From: Natronospira bacteriovora
GTDB taxonomy: Bacteria; Pseudomonadota; Gammaproteobacteria; Natronospirales; Natronospiraceae
DNA: 64,000 nucleotides
Direction of reading: 5' to 3'
NCBI RefSeq assembly: GCF_030848495.1
Contig: NZ_JAVDDT010000007.1
Span: 62,001-126,000, forward strand
Part shown: positions 7,895 to 11,658 of the stretch, piece by piece
How the letters are laid out: the number at the start of each line of letters is the position of its first letter
Numbering within the stretch: position 1 is the stretch's first letter
The notes under the pieces: generated by a model
Told to the model about the DNA's origin: nothing
The model's database searches: none
The model's input: only the letters and a program-made list of their open reading frames with translations
Position numbers and translations under genes: made by a program

Positions 7895-8287
7895 ATGGCA
7901 CAGCAACAGTATTACGGCACCGGCCGTCGCAAGACCTCCACCGCCCGCGTTTTCATGCGTCAGGGCAGTGGTCAGATCATCGTCAACGGCAAGCCGCTGG
8001 ACGAATACTTCGGCCGCAAGACTGCCCGGATGATCGTGCGTCAGCCGCTCGAGCGCCTGGAAATGGTCGACAACTTTGACGTCACCATCACCGTGGCCGG
8101 TGGTGGCAGCACCGGCCAGGCCGGCGCCATTCGTCACGGCCTCAGCCGTGCACTGATGGAATACGACGAAGCCCTGCGCAGCTCGCTGCGCCAGGCTGGC
8201 TGGGTCACCCGTGACCCCCGTCAGGTCGAGCGCAAGAAGGTCGGCCTGCGCAAAGCCCGCCGCGCTCCGCAGTTCTCCAAGCGTTAA
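7895..8287 (+). CDS. rpsI: 30S ribosomal protein S9
   Basis: 130 residues with the N-terminal [29 protein letters not shown] and the invariant basic C-terminal tail ending PQFSKR that reaches the ribosomal P site. It is followed 27 bases later by tRNA-Gln, which may be read from the same transcript. Confidence 0.98.
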
Positions 8288-8314
8288 TTGGATTACTGCC
8301 GGTTCCCGGTTTAT

Positions 8315-8388
8315 TGGGGGATCGTCTAACGGCAGGACAGCGGACTCTGACTCCGTCAATCTAGGTTCGAATCCTAGTCCCCCAGCCA
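8315..8388 (+). tRNA. tRNA-Gln (anticodon CTG)
   Basis: A full cloverleaf is visible: acceptor TGGGGGA/TCCCCCA with G discriminator and encoded CCA (8386-8388), D stem GTC/GAC, anticodon stem CGGA/TCCG with loop CTCTGAC (anticodon CTG, reading CAG), and T stem CTAGG/CCTAG around TTCGAAT. Copies of its 3' end recur in the next 330 bases. Confidence 0.97.
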
Positions 8389-8394
8389 TGAAGA

Positions 8395-8420
8395 CCCCAC
8401 CGACCAGGTGGGGTTTTTTT
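8395..8420 (+). terminator. Rho-independent terminator after rpsI / tRNA-Gln
   Basis: CCCCACC, loop GACCA, GGTGGGG, then seven T (8414-8420). Starts 6 bases after the tRNA CCA end. Confidence 0.9.
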
Positions 8421-8445
8421 ATGGCTGGTGGGTTTTATTCGAACC
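8421..8445 (-). repeat. Inverted degenerate copy of the tRNA-Gln 3' end
   Basis: Read on the minus strand it starts GGTTCGAAT and ends CCAGCCAT, as does the tRNA-Gln tail at 8364-8389, with a divergent middle. It begins right after the tRNA terminator. A further GGTTCGAATAA (8519-8529) lies in direct orientation, so the T-arm motif brackets 8435-8529 as an inverted repeat. Confidence 0.55.
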
Positions 8446-8525
8446 TTCGGCCAAGGCAAGCACGGCCCGTCACCAAGCTCGGCCTAGATCGAGGCATACC
8501 CACCCCGAGCGGCACCCCGGTTCGA

Positions 8526-8699
8526 ATAAATTGCCGGGAGCAATTTATCGCGAAGTGCGCAGCACGGAGCCCCGGAGCGCAGCGGAGGGGTGAGGCCTAG
8601 GGAAGGGCCGAACAATAAATCGCCGGGAGCGATTTGTCGCGGAGTGCGCAGCACGGAGTCCGTAGCGACAGCGGAGGACCAGGCGCAGGGAAGCGCCTG
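8526..8699 (+). repeat. Two-unit array of structured, GGA-rich repeats
   Basis: Two diverged direct units of about 85-89 bases (8526-8610 and 8615-8699). Each has a first hairpin with loop CGGGA (8526-8548; 8615-8637), a middle GGA-rich stem and a last hairpin with loop AGGGAA (8594-8609; 8680-8699). Differences between the units are compensatory: T-A (8532/8542) becomes C-G (8621/8631), and C-G (8597/8606) becomes G-C (8685/8694). This argues that the folded form matters. I see no open frame with coding character. This and its flanks are what fills the gap between tRNA-Gln and rpiA. Confidence 0.65.
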
Positions 8700-8701
8700 G
8701 C

Positions 8702-8716
8702 AATCCTAGTCCCCCA
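8702..8716 (+). repeat. Direct 15-bp copy of the tRNA-Gln 3' end
   Basis: AATCCTAGTCCCCCA is identical to tRNA-Gln positions 8370-8384. It could be an att-like scar or the right end of the repeat array. No integrase is nearby. Confidence 0.75.
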
Positions 8717-8744
8717 AAAAGATTGAGCCCGCGATAGCGGGCTC
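8716..8744 (-). terminator. Terminator of rpiA
   Basis: Minus-strand stem GAGCCCGC / GCGGGCTC with a four-base loop (8725-8744), then AATC and five T (8720-8716). On the plus strand no T-run follows, so it should work for the rpiA transcript. Confidence 0.65.
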
Positions 8745-8828
8745 ACCGAATAAAACACGCTTAAGATCTGCACTTCCGCCTCTAGCGCCGGCATTTAGAC
8801 AGCGGCGCGCCAACCGGATCGATTGGAA

Positions 8829-8852
8829 TCGCGGATAAATCCGCTCCTACGG
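8829..8852 (-). repeat. REP-like palindrome near the rpiA 3' end
   Basis: TCGCGGATAAATCCGCTCC followed by TACGG. On the minus strand it reads CCGTAGGAGCGG plus the palindrome, the same family as 1734-1755 and 1911-1933. It lies about 20 bases beyond the rpiA stop. Confidence 0.6.
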
Positions 8853-8873
8853 AGCCCAGACCGAACCAGGTCG

Positions 8874-9536
8874 TCACCGCCGATCAATCCGCTCCACCCC
8901 ATCCTCGCCGCCCAACAGAAGCACATCCGCACCACGGCGGGCGAACAGGCCCACGGTGACCACGCCGGGAATGGCATTGATGGTGTCTTCCAGCTTGATG
9001 GGCTCGGAGATGGTCAGGCCGGAGACGTCAATGATCTGGTTCCCATTGTCGGTAACGAAGCCTTCGCGCCAGTTGGGAATGCCGCCAAGCGCCTTCAGTT
9101 TCCGGGCCACGTAGCTCCGGGCCATGGGAATGACCTCCACCGGCAGAGGAAAGGCCCCCAGGGCGCGCACCAGCTTGCTGCGGTCCGCGATGCAGACGAA
9201 TTTCCGCGAGGCTGCCGCGATGATCTTTTCTCGGGTCAGGGCACCGCCCCCGCCTTTGATCAGCTGCAGGAGGCGATTGCTTTCATCCGCACCGTCCACG
9301 TACAGATCCAGATCACCGCTGCTGTTGAGCTCCATGACCTCGATGCCATGCTCCTGCAGCCGCTGGGTGCTGGCGTCGGAACTGGAGACCGCAGCGCGGA
9401 TACTCGGCCCTTCGGCCGCCAGCAGATCGATGAAATGATTCACGGTGGAGCCCGTTCCGACACCGAGGATGCAGCCTTCCTCGACGAATTTCAGGGCGGC
9501 GCGGGCGGCTTCCCGCTTGGCGGCATCTGAGCTCAT
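8874..9536 (-). CDS. rpiA: Ribose-5-phosphate isomerase A
   Basis: Interconverts ribose-5-phosphate and ribulose-5-phosphate in the pentose phosphate pathway. 220 residues, normal length, with [13 protein letters not shown] (phosphate binding), VDGADESN containing the catalytic acid, [12 protein letters not shown] and the C-terminal [14 protein letters not shown]. It is a single gene with its own terminator and a REP-like repeat behind it. Confidence 0.97.
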
Positions 9537-9718: not shown

Positions 9719-10210
<492 letters not shown>

Positions 10211-11470: not shown

Positions 11471-11658
11471 GGCATCTCCCACCTGTGCCGTCACGAGCCT
11501 TCGCCCTTGAACCGATGGTTCAAGTGGGGCCTTCCGCCGTGCCTCAGGCTTTCCGCTCGCTGGCGGACATGCGCACTGGCACCGCAGGTGCAGCCCTTGG
11601 GTATTGCTTAAGGCTCGAGGGGTAACCCAGCCCGTGTCGAACACCGCAGGAGATGCCA
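11471..11658 (-). ncRNA. ssrS: 6S RNA
   Basis: About 188 bases between zapA and the cyclo-ligase gene, the classical ssrS location. The ends pair (GGCATCTCC with GGAGATGCC), leaving a long rod with a central bubble. The 3' half carries CTTGAACC..GGTTCAAG, as in E. coli 6S RNA. 6S RNA binds the sigma70 holoenzyme as a promoter mimic. The exact ends are inferred from the terminal pairing. Confidence 0.88.

Follow-up and report, generated by a model that had tools for sequence, protein, structure and literature searches.

Two hairpin units with GGA loops stand behind a tRNA-Gln gene of Natronospira bacteriovora, and the question they raise is whether they form part of an RNA that titrates CsrA or a repeat shaped at the level of DNA. 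The window, that is, the whole stretch of DNA analysed, comprises 64,000 nucleotides of contig NZ_JAVDDT010000007.1, and coordinates given without another label are positions in it. The tRNA-Gln gene (anticodon ctg; 8315-8388, + strand) is intact and has the T-loop TTCGAAT. It is separated from the units by a terminator-like hairpin (8395-8420, +), CCCCACC-gacca-GGTGGGG followed by seven T, which was absent from the output of a consensus terminator scanner; a folding energy of -20.0 kcal/mol was obtained for a 35-base stretch around it. A complement of the tRNA 3' end, ATGGCTGG (8421-8428), is followed by an inverted copy of the tRNA T-arm, ATTCGAACCT (8437-8446, - strand), with an exact stretch of 10 nt where the largest among 200 shuffles was 9. 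This inverted arm is just 10 nt in exact length and lies 73 nt from the heptamer GGTTCGA (8519-8525, +), which forms the left flank of the units, corresponds to the 5' half of a second T-arm, and has the insertion point after its A. Two element copies follow on the + strand, copy 1 at 8525-8613 and copy 2 at 8614-8701, and the right flank AATCCTAGTCCCCCA (8702-8716, +) is an exact 15-nt duplicate of the 3' part of tRNA-Gln (8370-8384). Both the repeated tRNA end and the inverted T-arm had been missed by the first-pass annotation. Beyond them lies a terminator-like site on the - strand (8724-8745), which probably belongs to the - strand gene upstream of it (8874-9536), presumably rpiA. No promoter-like site was seen in 8200-8900 by a scan covering the sigma-70 type alone. 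Elsewhere in the window, 6S RNA (RF00013) was found at 11472-11655 (-) with 74.9 bits, and an ORF of 163 aa, rich in Lys and Ala and with numerous KKAS repeats, which we take to be histone H1-like in composition, was found at 9719-10210 (-).

The two units are real repeats with a start-to-start distance of 89 bp, and their first 48 nt are identical at 43 of 48 positions. In copy 1, hairpin H1 has the stem 8526-8534/8540-8548 and the loop CGGGA (8535-8539), and hairpin H3 has the stem 8594-8598/8605-8609 and the loop AGGGAA (8599-8604); in copy 2, the corresponding parts are 8615-8623/8629-8637 with CGGGA (8624-8628) and 8680-8686/8693-8699 with AGGGAA (8687-8692). Both loops had been named at first pass and were borne out by folding, and the three paired changes reported there are present: T-A at 8532/8542 versus C-G at 8621/8631, C-G at 8597/8606 versus G-C at 8685/8694, and T-G at 8598/8605 versus C-G at 8686/8693. 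The estimate of about five GGA triplets per unit was likewise accurate, with five in unit 1 and six in unit 2; among the 89-nt stretches of the window, 2.8% have at least five and 0.9% at least six. Two copies alone are weak evidence of constraint, since the folding energy is unremarkable for unit 1 (z of -0.81 on the + and -1.64 on the - strand) and moderate for unit 2 (-2.71 and -4.75, respectively). Selection for structure, the explanation originally offered, was examined in larger alignments. In alignment A1, which comprised nine copies from the same genome and was made without reference to structure, though the structure was derived from A1 itself, 98.1% of cells were paired and 14 of 24 pairs had changed on both sides, a number of double changes reached by none of 500 shuffles; with partners slid by one to three columns, 30-39% of cells were paired. 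In alignment A4, which was fitted to the structure by a covariance model, double changes were found at 16 of 19 pairs among 64 distinct rows, again reached by none of 500 shuffles. The hairpins are under clear constraint. The alternative that had been set beside the RNA reading, a purely DNA-level repeat, is nevertheless the better reading.

Eighteen copies from five genomes served to build a covariance model of the unit, R1. All 18 carry GGA loops, so that the matches of R1 lean to GGA, and some weak matches near the cut-off may be false. The two window copies score 87.7 and 86.7 bits. A DNA search of the same genome had yielded seven further matches, each adjoining a tRNA gene; with R1 the genome contained 28 copies, of which 12 lie in or beside ACGACA/CGATTA hexamer arrays, outside duplicated tRNA ends (loci L150-L158, L162 and L163, with two copies in L158). 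These arrays recur in the genome around terminators after genes and as large inverted repeats. At E<=1e-3, R1 has matches in 38 of 114 genomes, and at E<=1e-4 in 14 of a sample of 200 from across the phylum, the genome itself being counted both times. The sample used below comprises 143 re-scored copies in 35 genomes, namely 128 of 142 listed matches and 15 weaker ones from the same loci; 13 listed matches (G026:C207, G043:C14, G052, G111:C170, G071:C5, G060:C9, G027:C16:29465, G102:C52, G062, G014:C304, G065:C47, G054 and G079:C12) and the contig-end copy L133 were left out. Of the 143 copies, 66 stand on the 3' side of a tRNA, at a distance of up to 700 bp. In G003, a genome of the same family, copies stand in REP-like palindromes (L135, L139), and the flanks of these insertions rebuild the empty sequence GACAGGA/ATGTC, where the slash, here and below, marks the junction. 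Many copies in G046 (L209, L239, L242, L243, L248, L272 and others) have near-identical flanks, GCGCAGGA on the left and ACCGCAGTGTATGTGGAAATACATGAGGATTCCGAG on the right of the junction, and another repeat is the standard target in that genome. The element ends in GGCA in the window and more commonly in GARYA elsewhere.

The junctions follow a simple motif. The last base of the left flank is A in 137 of 141 copies, and at 136 distinct junctions its last three bases are CGA at 69, ACA at 16, GGA at 15, and TGA and AGA at 11 each; the first base of the right flank is A in 120 of 136. For the 66 copies with an upstream tRNA, the letter after TTCGA (or TTCAA) was compared with the strand of the element. 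Where the T-loop reads TTCGAA, element and tRNA share a strand in 45 of 46 cases, the exception (L157) being in a hexamer array; where another letter follows TTCGA, the element is on the opposite strand in 19 of 20 (exception L280). TTCGAA offers TCGA/A on the tRNA strand, whereas TTCGAG, TTCGAC and TTCGAT offer it only on the other. The strand of the element is thus a property of the DNA target, which speaks for DNA insertion at NGA/A and is the strongest single argument against a co-transcribed regulatory array. Hairpin apices were rejected as a general target, since outside tRNAs the stems at junctions are shorter than in controls (3.27 versus 3.67 bp, 74 copies); an apex preference holds at best for tRNAs (4.19 versus 3.77 bp, 63 copies).

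At tRNA genes the order of parts is an intact tRNA, a terminator, an inverted T-arm, a short loop, GGTTCGA, the element, and the tRNA 3' end again. Among 49 of the 66 tRNA-linked copies (those 25-160 bp behind the tRNA, with L157 excluded), the repeated tRNA 3' end beyond the element outscored every one of 200 shuffles in 37 cases, and the inverted T-arm before it did so in 28 only. An inverted T-arm as a general feature behind tRNAs was considered; among 35 different tRNA genes inspected in the same genome (a separate tRNA count found 43), the arm is clear almost only beside the element or beside an apparent decayed relic of it, as at tRNA-Lys ttt (L168) and tRNA-Phe (L177). Such modules form tandem arrays at tRNA-Lys (L006), at tRNA-Arg (L165) and in L281; in the last (G060, 450-1401), two element types alternate behind the tRNA, one with GGA loops and the other with AGC and GATA loops. 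In L130 and L138 the element has entered a tRNA-Ser copy at its anticodon loop, and in L206 (G103) a copy adjoins a tmRNA gene, apparently within a duplicate of the end of the tmRNA T-arm. In L275 and L279 the left flank equals a tRNA-Ser-like 5' part up to the D-loop, which suggests that D-loops may be entered as well. From this anatomy, snap-back synthesis at the tRNA terminator was considered as a possible source of the alternation of tRNA end, terminator, inverted end, loop, T-arm half, element and tRNA end.

Taken as a whole, the units are probably copies of a small non-autonomous mobile DNA element with the target NGA/A, likely moved by an enzyme. Dispersal, nesting, and presence or absence within the genus all point to mobility. 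L233 has a nested pair: the outer copy, inserted in a palindrome at GGA/A, holds the inner one in its H1 loop (again at GGA/A). At the site between rpsI and tRNA-Gln, the window has two copies, whereas G001 of the same genus has one and G002, also of the genus, has none; in G003 a REP-like repeat holds a copy instead, and G100, which is more distant, has one. The dispersed copies at a common motif are thus accompanied by a recoverable empty site, the tRNA-Gln site of G002, as is found for MITE-like elements. The element would be 60-90 bp long with two or three hairpins and would insert between NGA (or ACA) and a following A on the strand that bears the motif, with a target duplication of about one base at most. 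tRNA T-loops (TTCGA/A) would be its commonest landmark here, and copies would be seen in a partial second tRNA 3' end beside an intact tRNA because insertions that break a tRNA are selected against. Its movement would depend on an enzyme acting in trans, the hairpins would be recognised as DNA, and H1 and H3 with their NNGGA and ANGGAN loops would most likely be the recognition marks of that enzyme.

The search for a mobilising enzyme, which covered Y1_Tnp as its sole candidate, found none, and no autonomous relative came to light. The possibility that a RAYT (Y1 transposase) mobilises the element as a repeat of the REP/BIME type agrees with the short palindromes and with the lack of a long target duplication, and Y1_Tnp is weakly associated with the element, being present in 28 of 38 genomes with it versus 39 of 76 without it (Fisher p=0.027, a test that ignores genome size and kinship). 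It is nonetheless unlikely, and as a sole explanation it was rejected: the only Y1_Tnp of the genome has another palindrome at its flanks (GTGGGAGAGGCTTTAGCC...) and so does not present itself as a cognate RAYT, and 10 of the 38 element-bearing genomes, the 100% complete G007 among them, had no Y1_Tnp match. Inspection by eye revealed no tag of the GTAG type.

A rival explanation in terms of RNA draws on the repeats behind E. coli tyrT, which have been known for decades and which Rfam classes as a cis-regulatory RNA. The units would then be an RtT-type RNA, a by-product of the tRNA precursor that functions during amino-acid starvation or in tRNA processing, and the hairpins would have been selected as RNA. 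The architecture is shared with E. coli tyrT/tyrV, and the RtT model aligned end to end with four loci at 38.3 (L219), 36.1 (L260), 31.6 (L213) and 27.1 bits (L207). In Actinobacillus pleuropneumoniae, RNAs of the RtT family close to tRNA genes for Asn and Lys were detected on Northern blots, according to the part of that work consulted (PMC4986893). All of these scores, however, are below the gathering cut-off of 45 bits, and no match to the model was obtained at the window locus up to E=5, for which reasons membership of RtT is not claimed. The copies on the opposite strand and those away from tRNAs speak against such an RNA, and the terminator-like hairpin at 8395-8420 argues against co-transcription and processing with the tRNA. 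We consider this account quite improbable.

The first-pass annotation had suggested a CsrA sponge, in which CsrA/RsmA is titrated by the GGA loops of RNA transcribed from the units, in the manner of CsrB/RsmZ. What stood of this suggestion is that GGA is kept in covarying hairpin loops: among 143 copies, 133 have it in the loop of H1 and 135 in that of H3, counts that are inflated because all R1 training copies had GGA. The commonest H3 loop with its closing pair, C-AGGGAT-G, resembles the CsrA SELEX consensus RUACARGGAUGU, which was found mostly in six-base loops according to the portion of the report seen (PMC7652899). CsrA is encoded in the genome itself and in 33 of the 38 element-bearing genomes (the genome itself counted), but it is no commoner with the element (33/38 versus 60/76 genomes, p=0.44), a comparison that is uninformative; the five genomes that have the element but no csrA match prove nothing, since three are 75-84% complete, one is 7% contaminated and one is 90% complete. 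What found no support is the sponge as the reason for the hairpins. The strand obeys the DNA target, and since both GGA loops are kept in 18 of 20 opposite-strand copies versus 40 of 46 same-strand copies, whether a copy is sense to the tRNA transcript has no apparent influence on them. Copies also stand in REP-like repeats, in hexamer arrays and inside each other; non-GGA relatives exist, namely E. coli RtT and two of the four L281 modules; and the Rfam Csr/Rsm families gave no match in the whole window at the gathering threshold. With the terminator-like hairpin between tRNA and units and no sigma-70-like site seen around them, a dedicated CsrA sponge is very unlikely. The loops resemble the insertion target GGA/A, which offers a possible DNA-level reason for GGA.

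The ANGGAN loop of H3, by its likeness to CsrA ligands, may bind CsrA. It is conceivable, though rather a long shot, that a class-wide mobile element, with E. coli RtT as one offshoot, carries a ready-made CsrA ligand C-ANGGAN-G. Were this so, every copy that lands behind a tRNA or gene would seed a CsrA-binding hairpin into a read-through transcript, and transposition would feed the Csr network. A copy was observed behind the tRNA-Ser(gct) that follows csrA in several genomes (L164, L134, L201, L225, L223, L227); in G000, csrA is at C7:158451-158606 and the element at 158933-159009. This adjacency may be coincidence, as other Ser tRNAs carry insertions too.

As far as the evidence goes, then, the feature is real and constrained, and it reflects DNA mobility rather than a CsrA sponge. 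Hairpin covariation together with GGA loops is insufficient for calling a CsrA sponge, since a mobile DNA element can yield both.

Among known systems, CsrB/CsrC and RsmX/Y/Z share GGA in hairpin loops with the element, and differ from it in that no sigma-70-like site was seen around the units, the strand of the element is set by the DNA target, and its copies are dispersed, singly or in tandem. AaHKsRNA22 (RF02902, an Aggregatibacter sRNA) gave full-length alignments to L213 (24.4 bits) and L206 (28.8 bits), but both scores are below its cut-off of 39.8 and the window locus had no match. A search of the literature found no description of the element as a mobile family. The enterobacterial RU-1/2/3 repeats and MITEs are likewise short non-coding mobile repeats; RU-1/2/3, which measure 103-168 bp in the sections available to us (PMC2759123), are set beside the element by description and not by sequence. 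BIME/REP repeats are also small, dispersed, intergenic and palindromic, and some are rtT-similar: in the excerpts consulted, rtT-like repeats of Enterobacteria are assigned to BIMEs (PMC2965389). They differ in sequence, and REP-like repeats are here among the targets of the element. Variation in the number of rtT tandem repeats in Salmonella is likewise described in the part of the source seen (PMC2658671).

The closest likeness is to RtT itself (RF00391; E. coli tyrT/tyrV, rttR/tpr), which stands behind a tRNA with an inverted T-arm, GGTTCGA, hairpins and a tRNA 3' end, and forms tandem copies. At the window locus, the unit behind the tRNA is closed by the copied tRNA 3' end (8702-8716, equal to 8370-8384), and the inverted T-arm (8437-8446) and GGTTCGA (8519-8525) precede the hairpins in the same way. 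The E. coli loops, in contrast, lack GGA, R1 scores 8.6 bits on the E. coli sequence, and the element also occurs in REP-like repeats, in hexamer arrays and on either strand. The RtT repeats of E. coli end in GAGTA/ATCC (GAATA/ATCC in the tyrT copy), after which the tRNA 3' end follows. Kinship between the two is probable, and we infer common descent. If RtT and the element are one family, the NGA/A target and the T-loop strand rule would explain the place and direction of the E. coli repeats, and their origin becomes testable.
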